Below, one piece after another: positions 55,132-64,000 of a stretch of 64,000 nt of DNA. This DNA is from Flavobacteriales bacterium. GTDB lineage: Bacteria > Bacteroidota > Bacteroidia > Flavobacteriales > UBA7312. Location of the stretch: positions 1-64,000 of the forward strand of contig JADHMO010000004.1 of assembly GCA_016779995.1 (NCBI GenBank). Direction: 5' to 3'. The first letter of the stretch is position 1. Every line of letters begins with the position of its first letter. The notes beneath the pieces were generated by a model, which was not told the origin of the DNA, did not search any database, and saw only the letters and a list, made by a program, of their open reading frames with translations. Position numbers and translations under genes: made by a program.

Positions 55132-58122
55132 ATGAAAAAACGCATACCTCTATTAGTCCTGTTTTCATTCTGTACTTACATTTATTCTTTTGCTCAACAA
55201 AATTGGCGAGAAATGATGTATGACCCTTCAAAAAATTTCTATGATATACAAGCTGCTTTCTATGAAGGTTGTGGCGACCTACCATGTGATTCCGCTCCTG
55301 GATATAAACAATTTAAAAGATGGGAAGCTCATATGGTTGATAGAGTGTACCCAACAGGAGTGTATGATGCAGAAACCGTATTTAATGAATTTTTAAATGT
55401 CTATTATTACAACACCCATCAGTATAATGCCCCATTTGCGCCAATGGTTATGGCTCCATCGAGTGCAGCAGCCTCAACAACAGAATGGGAATTTGTAGGG
55501 CCAATAGATAATCCAAAAACTTACGACCACCCAAGTGTAACAAATAGAAACGGAATAGGTAGAGTAAATACAATAGCGTTTCACCCAACAAATGCTAATA
55601 TAATATATGTGGGCTCTCCAACAGGAGGGATTTGGAAAACTACCGACGGTGGTTCAACATGGACTGTACTTTCAGATTTTATCACCAATCTAGGGGTTTC
55701 AGATATAGCTATACAAAATTCCAACCCTAATGTCATCTATTGGGTAACTGGTGATTATGACGGAGGAGATACTTTTTTTAGTAAAATTTTGAAATCTACT
55801 AATGGAGGAACTTCATGGACAGTACTAAATGGCTCAGGACTTCCTTCAGGAACGAATAGAGTAATATCTAGGATACTTATACACCCAATTGTATCCAATA
55901 TACTAATTGTTTCTACGTCCAGTGGCATTTATCGATCAACAGATGGTGGTGTGAGTTGGAGCCAACGCCAAAGCGGAAACTTTAGTAGTTTAGAATTTAA
56001 GCCAGGAAACCATAATATAGTTTATGCAGGAACCCGATTAAATGGTAGGGTTTATCGGTCAACAGACAATGGAGTAAGTTGGAGTCTCGTTCATCAAAGT
56101 AGTGGGGGTTATAGAACGGCTTTAGCGGTTACGCCAAATAATGCTAATGTGGTATATGCTACTTTTTCAAATAGCTCAAGTCAGTACCAAAACTCTGCTA
56201 AATCAACAAATTCAGGAGCTAATTGGAGCAATATGGCCGGACTACCAAATGCTATTAATGGTATTGGTCAACAATGTGACTATAACTTTTGTGTTGCGGC
56301 TGCTTCTGACGATGCCAACTTTGTACATATTGGTGCTGTCAATTTATACCGTTCAACTAATGGAGGTAGTTCTTGGTCACAGCCTTATTCAGACATTAAT
56401 ACACATGTTGACTATCACACTTTAAGATATAATCCCTTAGACAATAAGTTATATGCAGGGCACGATGGAGGAATTAGTGTTTCTAGCGATGATAGTTATA
56501 ATTGGTCATATATTTCTGATGGACTCAACATAACCCAATTTTATAATTTTGGAGTATCTCAATCCAATAGTGGTTTAGATGTATTATTTGCAGGAGCACA
56601 AGATAATTCACTATTGTATAAAAATAACAACGGTTGGTTCAGAGCTGTTGCGGGCGATGGAGTTAATTCTAAGATTCATAAAGATAATGAAAATATTATG
56701 ATTGGATCTGTGCAGTATGGAATTGCAATGCTAAAATCTGCTACCTCATCTCCTCCGTTTAGCGATATTACCCCTGAGGGTCAATCTGGAACAGGTTTAT
56801 GGGAACTACCATTTGAAATGGATCCTAATAACAATGATATCGTATATGCGGGATATAGAAAATTGTTTAAATCTACAAATAGTGGCGGATCTTGGACAGT
56901 TGTAGCTGGTACAAACGTTACTAGTAATGAGGTTATAAATCAAATTTGTCCTACAACAAATCCTAATATTATTTATTTCTCGACTAGGAATTCAAGTGGG
57001 TCAAAACTATTCAAAACAACGAACGGTGGTAGTTCATGGGCGCAAATCGGAGTTGGTGCATTACCAGATTTAATAATTACAGATATCGCAACACCAGATT
57101 CTGACCCGAATACAGTTTGGGTAACTTTCTCAGGAACATCAGCTTCTAACAAAGTCTTTAGGTCAACAAATGGTGGCACTTCATGGTCAAATAGGAGTGG
57201 TACACTTCCTAATATACCAGTTAACTGCATAATTTTAGACGAAAATGTTGAAGAAGTATATGCTGGGCTTGACTTTGGGGTCTATAAATTACCTTCTTAC
57301 ACTAGTACTACATGGTCATTATTCAACAACAATAGTTTACCTTATGTATATGTCAAAGAATTAGAAATACATAAAACTAGCGCTCAATTAGTGGCTGGAA
57401 CTTTTGGACGAGGTATTTGGAAAATTGATTTGAAACATAAGCCAATTGTTGAGTTTTCTGCTGATCAAACTACAGTTTGTCAAAATGAAGCAGTAAATTT
57501 TACAGATGAAAGCCTTCACAATCCAACATCGTGGTTGTGGAACTTTGGAGATGGAAATACATCAAACGAACAACACCCTACACATTCATACTCAAGTGGA
57601 GGTACATTTAATGTCACACTAACAGCTACAAATGCTAATGGTAGTATATCTGAAACCTATTCTAATTATATAACAGTAGTTCCTCTTGCAGGGAATCCCG
57701 TAAGCAATATAACAACATCAGGTTCATACGAATGGTTTGGAACAACATATTTTTGTACAGGAACTTATTATTATACTTCGCCAACATGTCAAGATTACAC
57801 GCTTAATTTGACCATAAATAATCCTCTAATATCTTCAACAAGTGTAACAGCGTGTGATGAATATACATGGGACGTTTCTGGTCAACTATACACAACTAGC
57901 GGAACCTATTACCAATCCGTTTTGGCTCCTCAAGGATGTTTTGCCGATAAAGAGCTTGTATTAACCATTAACGCATCTACTGAGTCAAGTACTAGTCATA
58001 GCGCGACATATAGTTATACATGGCACGGTGAAAACTACTTTTGTAGTGGCACATACTATCATTATAGCACTAATGCTGCTGGTTGTGTGCATACAGATAT
58101 TTTATATCTTAATATCGAGTAG
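55132..58122 (+). CDS. Secreted BNR/sortilin-like beta-propeller protein with PKD domain
   Basis: The 996-residue protein has a signal peptide (MKKRIPLLVLFSFCTYIYSFAQ). A propeller of BNR/Asp-box repeats spans about residues 110-760, with repeated 'KTTDGGSTW', 'RSTDGGVSW' and 'KSTNGGTSW' boxes. A PKD domain follows (about 767-853, 'SWLWNFGDGNTSNEQHPTHSY'), then three 'GTYY' Cys-containing modules ending ILYLNIE. It is likely a surface glycan- or protein-binding or hydrolytic protein. The usual T9SS sorting domain is missing at the C-terminus and there is no room for one before the next gene, so either a different export tag or a truncation is possible. Confidence 0.85.
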   Translation: MKKRIPLLVLFSFCTYIYSFAQQNWREMMYDPSKNFYDIQAAFYEGCGDLPCDSAPGYKQFKRWEAHMVDRVYPTGVYDAETVFNEFLNVYYYNTHQYNAPFAPMVMAPSSAAASTTEWEFVGPIDNPKTYDHPSVTNRNGIGRVNTIAFHPTNANIIYVGSPTGGIWKTTDGGSTWTVLSDFITNLGVSDIAIQNSNPNVIYWVTGDYDGGDTFFSKILKSTNGGTSWTVLNGSGLPSGTNRVISRILIHPIVSNILIVSTSSGIYRSTDGGVSWSQRQSGNFSSLEFKPGNHNIVYAGTRLNGRVYRSTDNGVSWSLVHQSSGGYRTALAVTPNNANVVYATFSNSSSQYQNSAKSTNSGANWSNMAGLPNAINGIGQQCDYNFCVAAASDDANFVHIGAVNLYRSTNGGSSWSQPYSDINTHVDYHTLRYNPLDNKLYAGHDGGISVSSDDSYNWSYISDGLNITQFYNFGVSQSNSGLDVLFAGAQDNSLLYKNNNGWFRAVAGDGVNSKIHKDNENIMIGSVQYGIAMLKSATSSPPFSDITPEGQSGTGLWELPFEMDPNNNDIVYAGYRKLFKSTNSGGSWTVVAGTNVTSNEVINQICPTTNPNIIYFSTRNSSGSKLFKTTNGGSSWAQIGVGALPDLIITDIATPDSDPNTVWVTFSGTSASNKVFRSTNGGTSWSNRSGTLPNIPVNCIILDENVEEVYAGLDFGVYKLPSYTSTTWSLFNNNSLPYVYVKELEIHKTSAQLVAGTFGRGIWKIDLKHKPIVEFSADQTTVCQNEAVNFTDESLHNPTSWLWNFGDGNTSNEQHPTHSYSSGGTFNVTLTATNANGSISETYSNYITVVPLAGNPVSNITTSGSYEWFGTTYFCTGTYYYTSPTCQDYTLNLTINNPLISSTSVTACDEYTWDVSGQLYTTSGTYYQSVLAPQGCFADKELVLTINASTESSTSHSATYSYTWHGENYFCSGTYYHYSTNAAGCVHTDILYLNIE

Positions 58123-58209: not shown

Positions 58210-59337
58210 GTGGTAACACTCCAATTACATATCGGCTCCAAAACCTTAGATAAAAATGAGTGGGAAGGCTTGTGTCAGAAAAATTCGTTCTTGTCTTTAC
58301 CCTTTAAATTAGCATTTGAGAGACATCATAAAAATAACATTAGACATCTTTATTATGTAGCTGATGATAAGGAGAATAAAGCTATTGGTTATGCCCAAGA
58401 ATTTAACATTCGGAGTAATAGAATTCGTGATTATCAGAAAAAGAATGAGGTAAAGAGAAGCCTCATAAACTTAGTTTTAAAGTTGTTAAATTTAAAAGTT
58501 GTGGCACTCGGCAACGGTCTATTGACTAATATTTCTAATTTTTCTGCAGTCAAACTTTCCAACAACATTGATTTTTTTAACTCTTTATTGCTGCGTATAC
58601 AAAAAGACCTCAACGCCAATAAATTTATTATTCCAGATCATTTTTTTAATGAATTAAAAGTCGAAAAACCTACTGAGGTTTTTCCTGAATTGATAAAGGT
58701 TGTGGTAGACCAAGATATGCACTTAAAGATATCAAAGATTTGGAATTCGTTTGAAGATTACACAAAAGCACTTAAAAAAAAGTACAGAAGTCGCTTGAAA
58801 AGTGTAATGAAAAAAAGTAAGGATATAGAAATTAAAATATTGACTAAAACTCAACTTATAAAACATGCTGAAAAAATGCAAGAACTGTTTGATAATGTAC
58901 ATCAAAAGTCTGCCTTCGGCATTAGTCCTTTTAACACCTCTATTTATACAGACTTAATAGATTCAGACAATCCAAAGTGTCAAGTCTTTGCTTACTTTTT
59001 AGCTGATGAAATGGTTGCTTTTTCATCTGAACTAAAAGATGATGACAACTTATACTCTTATTTTATTGGCTTAGATTATCGCTATAATAAAAGTCATTGT
59101 TTATACGAAAGGATTCTTAACGAAACTATTAAATCAGCTATTAGTAATAAAAAAAGCAATCTCATCTTAGGAAGAACTGCCGCCGAGTTCAAAAGTAACG
59201 TAGGCGCACAACCAATCCACTCAGAAATATTTGTTTATCTCAAAAGCCCCATTTTACGACGTTTACTTAGACCTTTTTTAGAAAATATACAGCCTAGCAA
59301 TTGGATTCAGAGAAACCCTTTCAAAGAAATTATTTAA
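58210..59337 (+). CDS. GNAT/FemAB-like acyltransferase
   Basis: The 375-residue protein has two GNAT-like halves, the second clearly of the Acetyltransf_6/FemAB type. 'YSYFIGLDYRYNKSHCLYERILNETIKSAI' resembles the donor-binding helix region, and it ends 'LRRLLRPFLENIQPSNWIQ'. Such proteins transfer acyl or aminoacyl groups in envelope-polymer or exopolysaccharide synthesis. The start is GTG at 58210; no in-frame ATG is near. The nearest upstream gene encodes a surface protein. The function is a family-level call only. Confidence 0.72.
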   Translation: MVTLQLHIGSKTLDKNEWEGLCQKNSFLSLPFKLAFERHHKNNIRHLYYVADDKENKAIGYAQEFNIRSNRIRDYQKKNEVKRSLINLVLKLLNLKVVALGNGLLTNISNFSAVKLSNNIDFFNSLLLRIQKDLNANKFIIPDHFFNELKVEKPTEVFPELIKVVVDQDMHLKISKIWNSFEDYTKALKKKYRSRLKSVMKKSKDIEIKILTKTQLIKHAEKMQELFDNVHQKSAFGISPFNTSIYTDLIDSDNPKCQVFAYFLADEMVAFSSELKDDDNLYSYFIGLDYRYNKSHCLYERILNETIKSAISNKKSNLILGRTAAEFKSNVGAQPIHSEIFVYLKSPILRRLLRPFLENIQPSNWIQRNPFKEII

Positions 59338-60334
59338 TCACACCGCCAACCTCAGGTTCCTTGGTGAAAATCCTATAGGAAACTCCAAAAGTCAATTGAT
59401 TTTGTGTGGCAAACTGAAAGCCGTTTAAATCTTGGTACAAGGGTATATCAACCGAAACGAAATAACTTAAATCATTTTGAGAGTAACCTATTTGTGGAAT
59501 AAAAAGCAATTTTTTACTACCCGTATTGTGGTCTTCTATATTGTAGGTTATTAAATCAACTCCATCTTCAGCTTGAGTTTTAGCTACTGTTTCATACTTT
59601 ATCTGACCAGTAAGAGATAAGCCTTTGTAGATTGTTTTACCAACATTAAAACTTAAACTTGAGAGGTCACCAAATTTTTGCCCCAAGGGATTGTAAGATT
59701 TTTTGATGTATAAAGTATTAGCAAAAATTCTTAACTTTCTTTTAGGGTAATTTCTATAGAAAAAGGAATAAAACATAGCGTCTAAAGAGCCATTAGTTAA
59801 TTGTACAGCAGTTGGATTAAAAGCGTACAAATCACCAGTTAATGGGTGCGAAAATTTAAGGCTAGAGTCTCTATAACTTCCAAGCGGAACTTTCAAGCCT
59901 AGGCCAACAGTAATTTCTGTTCTATGATTATCTCTTTTCCAATTAAATAAATTGTAACGAGGAAAAATGATTAAATCTGAAACGCCTGAAGACGTGTAGG
60001 ATTCACTTTTATTAATTAATTTTTTATTTAAAAAATAACCCAAAGCAACTGACATAGTCAGTTTATCGGTAATACCATAATCTGTTCTTAAAAAGAAGTA
60101 GTTTGTTCTAAGTGTATCATCAAGTATAGAAACGGTATCTCTGTTGCTATTTGTTTTAAATGTATGAGTGGAGACAAATTGATAAGATGGAGCTATTTCT
60201 AACTGGTTTTTAAGTAAAACTCCCGATGCTGCACCTCCAGCGATAGGACTTGATGCACCCCCAGAACAACAACCTTGTGAATAAAGAAGATTGACAAAAA
60301 ACAACAAAACTATCGCAATTATATATTTTTTCAT
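59330..60334 (-). CDS. Outer-membrane beta-barrel protein of the MbnP/MbnH operon
   Basis: The 334-residue protein has a signal peptide (MKKYIIAIVLLFFVNLLYSQ) and a mature N-terminus beginning GCCSGGASSPIAGGAASGV, then a typical beta-barrel pattern of alternating residues to an aromatic-containing end. The Cys-Cys at the mature start could bind copper. It resembles 'transporter' proteins of the phenol-degradation MetA type. It is the last gene of a five-gene operon and follows the thioredoxin-like gene by 21 nt. It may be the outer-membrane exit or entry step. Its overlap with the convergent GNAT gene is 8 nt. Confidence 0.8.
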   Translation of the reverse strand: MKKYIIAIVLLFFVNLLYSQGCCSGGASSPIAGGAASGVLLKNQLEIAPSYQFVSTHTFKTNSNRDTVSILDDTLRTNYFFLRTDYGITDKLTMSVALGYFLNKKLINKSESYTSSGVSDLIIFPRYNLFNWKRDNHRTEITVGLGLKVPLGSYRDSSLKFSHPLTGDLYAFNPTAVQLTNGSLDAMFYSFFYRNYPKRKLRIFANTLYIKKSYNPLGQKFGDLSSLSFNVGKTIYKGLSLTGQIKYETVAKTQAEDGVDLITYNIEDHNTGSKKLLFIPQIGYSQNDLSYFVSVDIPLYQDLNGFQFATQNQLTFGVSYRIFTKEPEVGGVIK

Positions 60335-60355
60335 GGTATGTTAAATTTTGATTTT

Positions 60356-61105
60356 CTAGTTTATTTTGCTAAAAACAAAACGTCTAGGTTCATTTTTAAT
60401 TTTTATTATATAATTGCTTTGAGGCAAATGAGATATATCTATTTGAGCCCCTGACTCAAAATTATCTCTTTCTAATATAAGTTCTCCGAGCATATTTACA
60501 ATAATAATTGACATAGGATTGTTCTTTTCTGATGTGAGAGTAATTCGGTTTTGTGCTGGATTAGGATAAATTTGTACGCTTTGATTAGCAGTCGTTGTTT
60601 CAACACTAACACTACCACACTCTGATAAAGCCAAATCAATAGCAGCACTTAAACCGTCAGTAGAATTGTTTTCATCAAAATTTCTGTTGAAATAAACCTT
60701 ATGTGAGTTACAACCAACCACCACAGCCTTAGGCATACCGTCACTTCCATAATCAGACATTTTAATCTGTGAATTAGAAAAAATACTAACCCCATTCATC
60801 TGATAATTAGATGCCCATGTTTGTAGCTGCGAACAACTGGTATTGGCATAGTCATCAACCAACAAAAACTTTACTTTTTCTGGGTCATATGATTGCGTAG
60901 CAACATAGGTAGAAACCGTTGGACTTATACATGGCCCACAAGGCATTATCCAAGTAATTACAACGACATTGCCTTGATCTAAATCCTCGAATAAATTATA
61001 CATTTCGCCGTTACAGTTAGCAACGTTGAAGTTAGTCGCTGTAGTTTGTCCTACTAATAAATGTGTTGTTAAGATTGCTGCAAAACATAAAATTAATTTC
61101 TTCAT
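60356..61105 (-). CDS. Thioredoxin-like protein with T9SS sorting domain
   Basis: The 249-residue protein has a signal peptide (MKKLILCFAAILTTHLLVGQ). A TlpA/thioredoxin-like domain with active-site CGPC (Cys56-Cys59, TWIMPCGPCISP) is followed by the conserved 'MPKAVVVGC' cis-Pro loop. The last ~80 residues are a T9SS type-A sorting domain (QIYPNPAQNRITL onward, ending KINEP-type basic sequence). A surface- or periplasm-facing redox protein is expected. Its place between an HMA-domain protein and an outer-membrane barrel suggests keeping copper-site cysteines reduced or delivering metal (inference). It lies 17 nt after the HMA gene. Confidence 0.88.
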   Translation of the reverse strand: MKKLILCFAAILTTHLLVGQTTATNFNVANCNGEMYNLFEDLDQGNVVVITWIMPCGPCISPTVSTYVATQSYDPEKVKFLLVDDYANTSCSQLQTWASNYQMNGVSIFSNSQIKMSDYGSDGMPKAVVVGCNSHKVYFNRNFDENNSTDGLSAAIDLALSECGSVSVETTTANQSVQIYPNPAQNRITLTSEKNNPMSIIIVNMLGELILERDNFESGAQIDISHLPQSNYIIKIKNEPRRFVFSKIN

Positions 61106-61122
61106 ACTTTCTTATATATATT

Positions 61123-61470
61123 TTAATTTCTATCGTATTTGCAGCAGTAGTGCAAATTTTCATAAACCTCATCATCGGCTTTGTATTTCTCTGTATCGTA
61201 TCCCACCGAGGCAATTTTCTTTTGGATTTCGTCTATATCCGTTTGGTCGCTTTTATACTTAACGACCATCATTTTTGTTTCTGAACTCCATTTAGCAGAC
61301 AGAACACCTTCAATAGATTGAGCGGCATCAACAATGACTTTATTACACATTCCACAATTGCCCCAAACTTTAATTTTCTTTTTTACTTTATTTCCACCAG
61401 CATAACTAGTAGATATAGATAGTATTGAAATAAAACATAATAAGGAAAAAAATTTCTTGATTGATATCAT
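61123..61470 (-). CDS. Periplasmic heavy-metal-associated (HMA) domain protein
   Basis: The 115-residue protein has a signal peptide (MISIKKFFSLLCFISILSISTSYA). A single HMA domain (about residues 32-95) follows; its metal loop is GNCGMC (Cys39-Cys42), a variant of the usual MxCxxC. A C-terminal 'HYCCKYDRN' adds more cysteines. HMA domains bind Cu(I) or other soft metals; a secreted one acts as a metallochaperone. It lies 91 nt after the diheme peroxidase gene and 17 nt before the thioredoxin-like gene. Confidence 0.88.
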   Translation of the reverse strand: MISIKKFFSLLCFISILSISTSYAGGNKVKKKIKVWGNCGMCNKVIVDAAQSIEGVLSAKWSSETKMMVVKYKSDQTDIDEIQKKIASVGYDTEKYKADDEVYENLHYCCKYDRN

Positions 61471-61561
61471 AACACAGGTTTTAAGTTGTTCATTTTAATT
61501 CATTAAAGTTATAAATAAAATCGACATAATAATTTTTCGAATATTAAATAAAATTCATTTC

Positions 61562-62542
61562 TTACTCGTTAAAGCTCAAAAATGTTGAGTCAGTTAATGC
61601 TTTTAAAAAAGCTATTAAATCTGCTTTTTCATATTCATTTATCACAAAAGGTTTAATAAAAGCACTTTTGTTTTGATGGTTTTTTCCGCCTTTGGAATAA
61701 TGCTCAATGACTTCTTCCAATGTTTGTATACTACCATCATGCATATAGGGATAAGTTACGGCTATATTCCTCAATGTAGGCACTTTGAATATAGCTCTAT
61801 CTTTTTCTTTGCCAAATAATCGCATCCTACCAGAGTCTGGATAATTTAAATATAAGCCATTATTAGTTAGTCCGCCATTTGTAAAGTTAAATCCACTGTG
61901 GCATTCTGAACAATACAATTTATTTTTGAAAAGATGCATACCTCTTTTTTGGGACTGGCTTAGGGCCGTTGTGTCTCCTTGAAAATAGTATTTGTCATAC
62001 GCTGAATTACCACTAATTAGTGTCCTTTCGAATGTGGCAATAGCCTTTGTAAGTACTCTTGGGCTAGGCTCTTCTCCATAAGCTTCAAAGGATAGCTGCA
62101 CATATTCTGAACTCTTTTTCATTCGCTCAGCCACTAGAATTACGCTAAAGTCAAACTCATTAGTTTCGTGTATTGGAATATTAACTTGTGCTTCTAAACT
62201 CGGATTTAGTCCGTCGAGCAAAAACTTGTCTTGATAAGCAACATTGGTCAATGTTGGTGTATTTCTAGAAACCTCTTGATCTCTTATACCAACTCCTTTA
62301 GTCCTTCTGTCGGTAAAGGCAAACTTTGGCACATGACAACTTGCGCAAGACAAAGTGGAATCTCTAGATAACATTTTGTCAAAAAATAATTTTTTTCCCA
62401 ACTCAATACGCTTTGCTGAAATTGAATTGTCTTCTGGAATGTAAGGTTGTGGAAAGCCTTGAGGAACTATCAATTCATAACTTTTATCTACTAGTATAAT
62501 TCCAAAAACACTAAGACATAAAACTAAAAGTGTTTTAAACAT
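61562..62542 (-). CDS. MbnH-like diheme cytochrome c peroxidase
   Basis: The 326-residue protein has a signal peptide and two c-type heme motifs: Cys66-x-x-Cys69-His70 (CASCH) and Cys211-x-x-Cys214-His215 (CSECH). Distal-side features include 'YPYMHDGS' (Met267, His268). This is the bacterial diheme peroxidase/MauG superfamily. The next gene upstream, 3 nt away, encodes an MbnP-family protein, and MbnH-type enzymes use high-valent heme to oxidise a tryptophan of their MbnP partner to kynurenine, creating a Cu(I) site. I therefore favour MbnH over a peroxide-detoxifying peroxidase. It acts in the periplasm. Confidence 0.88.
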   Translation of the reverse strand: MFKTLLVLCLSVFGIILVDKSYELIVPQGFPQPYIPEDNSISAKRIELGKKLFFDKMLSRDSTLSCASCHVPKFAFTDRRTKGVGIRDQEVSRNTPTLTNVAYQDKFLLDGLNPSLEAQVNIPIHETNEFDFSVILVAERMKKSSEYVQLSFEAYGEEPSPRVLTKAIATFERTLISGNSAYDKYYFQGDTTALSQSQKRGMHLFKNKLYCSECHSGFNFTNGGLTNNGLYLNYPDSGRMRLFGKEKDRAIFKVPTLRNIAVTYPYMHDGSIQTLEEVIEHYSKGGKNHQNKSAFIKPFVINEYEKADLIAFLKALTDSTFLSFNE

Positions 62543-62545
62543 CTA

Positions 62546-63541
62546 CTACCTAGTTACGATAAATTGTTGAGACTTTTGATACCCCATTTCACTCGTGAAA
62601 ATGGCATAGTATATTCCTGTTGGTAGTTCGGACTTAACGAAATAATTGCCTTCAAAACCTATGTTTTTTTCATCAACCATTCGTCTTCCACTCATATCAA
62701 TGATGCTTAAAGAGTAGTTTGATTTTGGTAATTTGTAAAATAAGGTAGGTGCGTATGGCATTCTGTAGTCTACACTAATAAATGCTAAATCTTCAAGTTG
62801 AGTTGTTATATTGACAGTTTCAGCAGGTGAAGCCGTGAAAACATTTTGAGAATTGGTATTGTCCACAACGCTAATATTTGGAGCTCCAGCGCCATGCTGT
62901 ATTCCTATAGTTTCAAAATCCATTTGTTTGAACCAACGTTCTATATTAACATAAAGTGGCAAGGTGATTTCAGAGTTAATGGCTGTTATTGGCTCCTCAA
63001 AGGTAATAGGGTCTATTGTTCTCAATAATTCATCTCCGAAACACTCAAGCTGAAATGCTTTGTTTGGAGAGCCGTTATCTGTATTATCTACCCTACCGTC
63101 TAAGATTAAGAAAAAATATCCCGCAGGCCAACCCCAATCCATAGGTGGAGTTTTAGGCCCTAAAGGATGAGAAGCAGACCAATTACTCGTATTACCATGG
63201 TTGGCATCATAATCTACTCCTAAGTCAAAAGCTATTTTTTCTACACTATTAATGTCGTATGTATTTTCAATACTATAATTGGTGACGTTGCCTTCACCTA
63301 GTATATAAATATCGGTTAAAGGTGTAACTTGACCCCCATCGTGAGTAATCTTGATCGAAGACATATAATACCTAACAGGGTAAAAGTTCACCGCTCTGTC
63401 TTGATAGTCAGTATATGACTGATTGTAAACTAAGGGTTGTCCTCTAAAAATGTGATTCAACTCTAATTTTATACTGTTTTGGGCATAAAATAAAGTGGGA
63501 ATAATAGATGCAAATAGTAAGATGGCAATGTTCTTTTTCAT
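62546..63541 (-). CDS. MbnP-family protein with T9SS sorting domain
   Basis: The 331-residue protein has a signal peptide (MKKNIAILLFASIIPTLFYA). Its central domain matches the MbnP family: 'VRYYMSSIKI', 'FDLGVD', 'SHPLGPKTPPMDWGWPAGY' and a 'LDGRVDN' strand. Tryptophans that could be the modified residue are Trp121, Trp136 and Trp138, the last two in the conserved MDWGWPAGY. The last ~70 residues form a T9SS type-A sorting domain ('ELPTGIYYAIF', ending QFIVTR), which the methanotroph protein lacks. MbnP binds Cu(I) through a kynurenine made by MbnH. First gene of the operon; its partner follows by 3 nt. Confidence 0.88.
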   Translation of the reverse strand: MKKNIAILLFASIIPTLFYAQNSIKLELNHIFRGQPLVYNQSYTDYQDRAVNFYPVRYYMSSIKITHDGGQVTPLTDIYILGEGNVTNYSIENTYDINSVEKIAFDLGVDYDANHGNTSNWSASHPLGPKTPPMDWGWPAGYFFLILDGRVDNTDNGSPNKAFQLECFGDELLRTIDPITFEEPITAINSEITLPLYVNIERWFKQMDFETIGIQHGAGAPNISVVDNTNSQNVFTASPAETVNITTQLEDLAFISVDYRMPYAPTLFYKLPKSNYSLSIIDMSGRRMVDEKNIGFEGNYFVKSELPTGIYYAIFTSEMGYQKSQQFIVTR

Positions 63542-63691
63542 GGTTTGGATTGGGTTATTGATATGACATGCAATTTACAAAACTGTAGCGTTATAAAGAA
63601 ATTTAATTCCTTGAATGTTTCTATTTCTTACGCTTTCTAGAGCCAAAATTTCATGCCAAATAAATAATTATATTTTTTATAAAAAATATGA

Positions 63692-63699
63692 TAGCTTTG
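63692..63699 (+). promoter_or_regulatory. -7 box (TAGCTTTG) of the cytidylyltransferase gene
   Basis: A perfect TAnnTTTG ends 6 nt before the ATG at 63706 and lies inside the alternative frame start at 63688, which favours 63706 and a leaderless mRNA. Confidence 0.4.
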
Positions 63700-63705
63700 T
63701 ATATA

Positions 63706-64000
63706 ATGAGTTCTTCTAGTAAAATATTAGTCATTATACCAGCTCGTGCAGGCTCAAAACGTATTAAAGGCAAAAATACTAAGCCTTTTAATGGTTTTCC
63801 GCTCATTGTGCATAGCATTAAATATGCTCAAAGCTACATTGGTGGTGATATTATCATTTCTACTGACGACAAACAAATTGGGTCAATCGCTGAACAATAC
63901 AATATTCCTATACTATGGCGCAACGAAAGTTTGGCTCAAGACCAAACGCCAACTACAGATGTTGTTAAAGATGTAGTGTCAAGAGTGGAAAAATTATATG
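63706..64000 (+). CDS. neuA: Acylneuraminate cytidylyltransferase (partial, cut by window end)
   Basis: Ninety-eight residues are visible. The start is MSSSKILVIIPARAGSKRIK, and the nucleotide-binding signature ARAGSKRIKGKN matches CMP-sialic acid synthetase-type cytidylyltransferases. The family regions 'ISTDDKQIGSIAEQY' and 'DQTPTTDVVKDVV' follow. It would activate a nonulosonic acid (sialic, pseudaminic or legionaminic type) with CTP for surface-glycan synthesis; the sugar cannot be read from this part. An ATG at 63688 is in frame but lies upstream of the -7 box. Related biosynthesis genes are expected to the right of the window. Confidence 0.85.
   Translation, partial: MSSSSKILVIIPARAGSKRIKGKNTKPFNGFPLIVHSIKYAQSYIGGDIIISTDDKQIGSIAEQYNIPILWRNESLAQDQTPTTDVVKDVVSRVEKLY

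Follow-up and report, generated by a model that had tools for sequence, protein, structure and literature searches.

A Cys-tipped outer-membrane barrel and an MbnP-MbnH pair in one gene cluster of a Flavobacteriales bacterium: a putative copper-handling locus built from two modules

Introduction

How copper passes the outer membrane without methanobactin is poorly understood, and a cluster of five genes from a Flavobacteriales bacterium raises the question of whether such genes work together at the cell surface or are merely neighbours. The window analysed here is a stretch of 64,000 nucleotides (contig JADHMO010000004.1 of assembly GCA_016779995.1, positions 1 to 64,000). Five open reading frames (ORFs), all on its minus strand at 59330-63541, encode in order an MbnP-family protein, an MbnH-like diheme enzyme, a secreted HMA metal-binding protein, a thioredoxin-fold protein (Trx) and an outer-membrane beta-barrel. 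An original prediction, made from the sequence alone, had read them as one operon for copper capture at the surface, independent of methanobactin. Our analysis divides the cluster into two modules, MbnP-MbnH and HMA-Trx-barrel, which recur side by side more often than chance predicts; that together they handle copper, moving or buffering Cu(I) across the outer membrane, is the reading we prefer, and we hold it tentatively.

Results

Two modules that are mostly apart and repeatedly meet

The ORF positions and the gaps between them (3, 91, 17 and 21 nt) agree exactly with the original prediction, and its family assignments were borne out, those of MbnP, MbnH and HMA by matches over the cutoffs of PF20243, CCP_MauG and PF00403, and those of the Trx fold and the barrel by structural models only. 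The view of the cluster as a single, indivisible and conserved operon had to be given up, the two modules being apart in most genomes. The exact five-gene order was not found among 20 of the order's barrel hits, the 75 loci of the species scan described below or the MbnP neighbourhoods read. The context scan of related loci used queries from which the sorting domain of the type IX secretion system (T9SS) had been removed. The MbnP family is common in the order, since 95 of 148 genomes have PF20243, and in 73 of the 77 MbnP neighbourhoods inspected MbnH lies downstream of MbnP. Conversely, HMA-Trx-barrel occurs without MbnP or MbnH in one family (f11) and in genome G022.

A scan of 84,980 species, each represented by a single genome, with the barrel alignment gave 75 loci. 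In 60 of 72 of them the gene immediately upstream of the barrel was Trx (those without it being mostly contig ends or distant members), HMA was present in 32, MbnP in 6 and MbnH in 4. The invariant part is thus the Trx-barrel pair, which is conserved in about 60-70 species-level Bacteroidota genomes, mostly away from MbnP/MbnH, with HMA in about half. The genes found around these relatives have a metal flavour, including HMA proteins, CusB with an HMBD domain, transporters of the resistance-nodulation-division (RND) type and TonB receptors.

MbnP is encoded somewhere in 38 of 46 barrel-bearing genomes, and in the 95 of 148 genomes of the order noted above, a difference that is only suggestive because the two samples differ in make-up. 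A chance estimate based on the MbnP copy numbers and sizes of these 46 genomes predicted 0.40 MbnP copies in the fetched stretches; five loci in four lineages were observed (L131, L133/L135, L139 and L148), and the probability of finding MbnP near Trx-barrel in four or more lineages is about 7e-4. The window was excluded from this calculation because it had prompted the search. On the barrel tree, with the window included, adjacency to MbnP requires five changes, three of which are forced by well-supported branches. Nearest to the order seen in the window are two related metagenome-assembled genomes (L133/L135) with MbnP-MbnH-MbnH-Trx-barrel on one strand and a divergent HMA gene; HMA also adjoins MbnP-MbnH in a genus (g55) of family f8 (L064 and L065).

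A further line of evidence comes from another type of MbnP. In families f3, f6 and f8, which are Flavobacteriaceae- and Weeksellaceae-like by gene content, a lipoprotein-type MbnP-MbnH pair is in many genomes followed by a barrel with CDACGC or CDICGC (CDxCGC) at its N-terminus. Such a barrel follows MbnH at 22 MbnP genes (24 barrels were listed). Profile comparison identifies these barrels as distant homologues of the window's barrel family (hhalign probability 99.7, E 2.3e-26, bearing in mind that barrels of one superfamily match one another readily). The expectation that HMA, Trx and barrel genes would be conserved next to MbnP/MbnH therefore survives in part: the five-gene set as such is not conserved, while MbnP near Trx-barrel occurs above chance and a Cys-tipped barrel after MbnH is common.

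MbnP and MbnH

The window's MbnP scores 83.6 bits against PF20243 (cutoff 27) and 35.6 bits against TIGR04052, below the equivalog cutoff of 140. Its neighbour scores 165 bits against CCP_MauG and 281.9 bits against TIGR04039, its top NCBIfam family, under the equivalog cutoff of 362.85, and the Cys and His residues of both CxxCH motifs are invariant in the MbnH alignment (A6). The nearest solved relative of MbnH is PDB entry 6e1c ('Di-heme enzyme', E 2.6e-44), which we take to be the MbnH of Methylosinus trichosporium. PDB searches with the MbnP sequence and profile found no MbnP structure, the profile matching T9SS tails only.

All 21 T9SS-type relatives of MbnP (312 aa or longer) have the WGW motif. 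The first Trp of a WxW motif is said, in work by Manesis and colleagues from 2021, to be converted to kynurenine; this residue presumably corresponds to Trp136 of the window's MbnP, where by analogy a Trp-to-kynurenine change would be expected. Trp121, which the original prediction had also listed as a modification site, is not plausible and was rejected, the conserved pair being W136-G-W138. A second MbnP-MbnH pair in the same genome is lipoprotein-like and has no WxW.

Several features of related loci were seen in passing. MbnP proteins without WxW are paired with MbnH in families f1 and f11 (L053, which is C7 of the window's own genome, L058-L063 and L226-L233), and these pairs are often followed by T9SS-tagged Peptidase_M43 genes and, in f1, also by trypsin-like ones. 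Downstream of T9SS-type MbnP there are often two tandem MbnH-like enzymes of different sequence types, of about 340 and 365 aa (L035, L040-L043, L045-L048, L050 and L051), which may perform two oxidations or act on a second substrate; the window has only the shorter type. Just upstream of lipoprotein-type MbnP, many of the loci L194-L225 encode a small protein, roughly 120-130 aa long, whose motif resembles CxNKxKPELHCNGKC; neither of the two examples scanned reached the cutoff of any Pfam or NCBIfam family. Upstream of MbnP in the two loci most closely related to that of the window lies a gene, absent from the window, whose product of about 185 aa has no Pfam match (L033:3981-4544 and L034:4958-5512).

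Export by the type IX secretion system

The T9SS tags proposed for MbnP and Trx were confirmed with unequal strength. The Trx tail scores 48.8 bits against PF18962 (cutoff 27; 51.3 bits in the genome search), and all 13 Trx homologues scanned have such a tail. The MbnP tail is weak: its Pfam score of 18.7 bits is below the cutoff, whereas its 27.7 bits against TIGR04183 exceed the cutoff of 23; the C-terminal region of MbnP homologues matches solved T9SS C-terminal domains. The genome encodes the secretion system itself, with SprA at 2605 bits and 71 matches to sorting tags.

HMA, thioredoxin-like protein and barrel

HMA scores 34.9 bits against PF00403 (cutoff 24.8). In its alignment (A3) G-x-C-x-M-C is invariant, as are the His, the Cys pair and the next residue, Tyr, of the C-terminal HYCC motif. 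No Pfam thioredoxin family was over cutoff for the window's Trx; its AlphaFold2 model, which like that of the barrel was built from sequences of the window and the related loci and is confident (predicted local distance difference test score, pLDDT, 89.3), shows a beta domain after a fold of the ResA/TlpA type, and Foldseek matched it to ResA (E about 5e-8). The original prediction had described the protein by a CGPC motif; we rejected it as a conserved motif, as the family keeps MPCxxC with variable middle residues. C31, C56, C59 and C91 are invariant in 50 sequences.

For the barrel, no Pfam or NCBIfam family was over cutoff (PF13557 reached 15.3 bits, under its cutoff of 22). Its AlphaFold2 model has a mean pLDDT of 86.5, with residues 14-30 and 32-35, including GCCSGG, below 50. 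The best solved match of the model is the COG4313 channel 4rl8 (E 5.2e-11, template modelling score 0.76 by target length), a 12-stranded barrel with its N-terminal 14 residues folded into the lumen (PMC4493636); by analogy, the Cys tail of the window's barrel may lie in the lumen or at the periplasmic mouth. Among 51 family members C23 is invariant and C22 over 90% conserved, and distant barrels found by a whole-protein search have TCCSGG or CCSAG. The conservation of GCC in the 75 scanned loci is partly built in, because one of the two scan patterns contained QGCCSGG; the whole-protein search is free of this bias. The barrel was considered as a lipoprotein and rejected as such, the residues before the Cys (A/S-Q-G) forming no usual lipobox.

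Seven Trx-barrel loci (L131, L137, L153, L159, L170, L173 and L185) also have small cytochrome c genes and a 419-aa protein without a Pfam match, several of them with a PKD-domain protein.

A variable chromosomal site

The cluster lies between an acyltransferase gene and a neuA-like gene (Table 1), and this site is variable, because in genome G068 the two flanking genes are directly adjacent and the site is empty, in G008, of the same genus, only an HMA orthologue (71% identity) stands between them, and in G022 the acyltransferase gene adjoins Trx-barrel and an HMA gene without its 5' half, which abuts the preceding gene. The G022 locus looks like the product of a deletion, its truncated HMA gene (L245:8110-8361, the lost half including the CxxC motif) being a likely deletion scar. 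The 91-nt gap between MbnH and HMA is likely the boundary of the two modules. Promoter and terminator scans of the cluster gave nothing above shuffles. The G+C content across the cluster (31-36%) is that of its surroundings, so there is no sign of recent foreign origin.

Table 1. Coordinates of the cluster, its motifs and its flanking genes in the window.
Feature	Positions	Strand	Length	Remarks
MbnP-family protein	62546..63541	-	331 aa	Sec signal peptide; weak T9SS sorting domain (type A) at the C-terminus
WGW motif of MbnP	63128..63136	-		Trp136-Gly-Trp138; checked by translation
T9SS sorting domain of MbnP	62555..62740	-		C-terminal
MbnH/MauG-like diheme c-type enzyme	61562..62542	-	326 aa	two CxxCH; no lipobox Cys
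First heme motif	62333..62347	-		CASCH
Second heme motif	61898..61912	-		CSECH
Gap between the modules	61471..61561	-	91 nt	likely module boundary; modules split in relatives
HMA protein	61123..61470	-	115 aa	secreted; metal-binding
Metal-binding motif of HMA	61345..61356	-		CGMC
C-terminal motif of HMA	61141..61152	-		HYCC (His-x-Cys-Cys)
TlpA/ResA-like thioredoxin-fold protein	60356..61105	-	249 aa	with T9SS sorting domain
Active-site motif of Trx	60929..60946	-		MPCGPC; family consensus MPCxxC
T9SS sorting domain of Trx	60362..60571	-		C-terminal
Outer-membrane beta-barrel	59330..60334	-	334 aa	COG4313-like fold
N-terminal motif of barrel	60257..60274	-		GCCSGG, at predicted mature N-terminus
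FemAB/GNAT-like acyltransferase	58210..59337	+		tail-to-tail with barrel gene; one edge of variable site
Cytidylyltransferase (neuA-like, by sequence)	63688..63999	+		runs off the window; other edge of variable site

Discussion

In the preferred reading, a periplasmic MbnH would oxidise MbnP at the leading Trp of WGW, and the oxidised MbnP would leave through the T9SS and display a site for Cu(I) on the outside of the cell. The other module would supply a COG4313-type channel whose conserved Cys-Cys N-terminal tail, by analogy with the crystal structure, could sit in the lumen or at the periplasmic mouth, a T9SS-exported TlpA-like protein that would maintain Cu(I) or thiols in the reduced state, and, as metal carrier in the periplasm, a secreted HMA protein. 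Acting together, the two modules would transfer Cu(I) across the outer membrane or buffer it, with inward movement more likely than outward. A more specific version, in which the kynurenine protein displayed by the T9SS loads the channel independently of TonB, with the Cys-Cys or CDxCGC tail as a thiol-gated plug that binds the metal, the TlpA-like protein as reductant and HMA as acceptor in the periplasm, we consider quite unlikely as a whole.

Several observations weigh against the preferred reading. The modules are apart in most genomes, no HMA, Trx or barrel gene lies near the MbnP genes most closely related to that of the window (L033, L034 and others), and the modules could be unrelated neighbours in an island of the metal-resistance type. 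The window's MbnP has Asp in place of the usual His before WGW (MDWGW rather than MHWGW). COG4313 channels of known role import hydrophobic molecules. Contact between Trx and the barrel tail is not obvious, because the exported Trx would be outside and the Cys tail should face the periplasm. Lastly, where relatives have CusB and RND neighbours, as some do, these agree with efflux better than with uptake.

One rival is that the cluster serves defence, with MbnP, HMA, Trx and the barrel sequestering or expelling Cu(I) at the surface and so limiting its toxicity. The Trx-barrel pair stands beside genes for CusB-type (HMBD), TolC-type and RND efflux components in several relatives, and HMA-domain proteins and RND-sized transporters occur near MbnP-MbnH in L039 and L040. 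However, in methanotrophs copper represses MopE, CorA and the diheme proteins paired with them, and these proteins are tied to the acquisition of copper (PMC3621798, PMC3912023); TonB receptors also neighbour the HMA-Trx-barrel module. Defence appears a somewhat doubtful explanation. That MbnP-MbnH and HMA-Trx-barrel are independent and share only a variable site would account for their separation in most genomes, for the empty, HMA-only and truncated states of the site in G068, G008 and G022, and for the 91-nt gap at the module boundary. We regard it as unlikely, since adjacency has recurred three to five times on the barrel tree, above chance, and a homologous barrel follows MbnH in the 22 neighbourhoods of the other MbnP type.

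It could also be that Trx-barrel has nothing to do with metals, the channel taking a hydrophobic or peptide substrate and the two Cys residues forming disulfides or anchoring a lipid. The uptake of hydrophobic molecules by characterised COG4313 channels would agree with this, as would the amyloid export by FapF, another close fold match. Against it, HMA accompanies Trx-barrel in 32 loci with metal-efflux genes nearby, the Cys motif is kept in the distant barrels that adjoin MbnH, and A/S-Q-G before the Cys is unlike the usual lipobox, so that we find this explanation very improbable.

The preferred reading also has to be set against known systems. No MbnB match was found in the window's genome, in line with the original prediction that methanobactin genes are absent. 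The proposed independence of copper capture from methanobactin is consistent with this absence, but it is not new, as a study of 2013 (PMC3621798) had already described MbnP/MbnH pairs 'far beyond' the producers of methanobactin. The cluster resembles MbnP/MbnH of Methylosinus trichosporium in that a WxW MbnP adjoins a MauG-like diheme enzyme with 6e1c as its best PDB match, and differs in its T9SS tag, its sub-cutoff scores for TIGR04052 and TIGR04039, its MDWGW sequence, its lack of MbnB and the HMA, Trx and barrel genes downstream. In the methanotroph pairs CorA/CorB and MopE/SACCP, likewise, a diheme peroxidase-like partner goes with a Cu(I) protein of the cell surface in which a kynurenine formed from Trp lies close to the copper (PMC3912023); their secretion route is different and no Trx-barrel module has been described for them. 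Copper operons that contain MbnPH genes with TonB transporters, cruR and AhpC_TSA genes (PMC9426467) share with our cluster the combination of a methanobactin-independent MbnPH, an outer-membrane transporter and a thioredoxin-fold protein, although the transporter there is TonB-dependent, whereas here it is a COG4313-like barrel accompanied by a T9SS-tagged TlpA-like protein. Within the PF13557 superfamily, Pput2725 (4rl8) is the best fold match and also has an N-terminal segment ahead of its first strand, but it shares only about 14% identity with the window's barrel, which has the conserved Cys-Cys N-terminus and a metal gene context. Trx has the thioredoxin-type fold and CxxC of the ResA/TlpA oxidoreductases, and is set apart from them by the lack of a Pfam match over cutoff, the T9SS tag, MPCxxC and two more invariant Cys (C31 and C91).

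Among open-licence papers we found none on the Trx-barrel pair, on Cys-tipped barrels by MbnH or on T9SS-tagged MbnP. As far as we could find, the Trx-barrel pair and its recurrent link to MbnP-MbnH, either direct or through homologous barrels, are new, and the combination of MbnP-MbnH with an outer-membrane barrel that is Cys-tipped seems to be a genuine theme not described before. The Cys-tipped barrel by MbnH provides a concrete candidate channel for copper in a large phylum, and the T9SS-tagged MbnP proteins are candidate kynurenine-copper proteins outside the methanotrophs.

Additional observations

Cys-rich small proteins like HYC_CC_PP are encoded beside T9SS-type MbnP or the barrel in five loci (L040, L043, L047, L133 and L139), membership of the family being confirmed for L133:4430-4828 only. 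Adjoining the cluster in the window (55132-58122) is a gene whose 996-aa product has a PKD domain as well as repeats of the Sortilin-Vps10 type, and in G008 (L234) a sequence similar to the C-terminal part of this protein lies beside the same acyltransferase gene.

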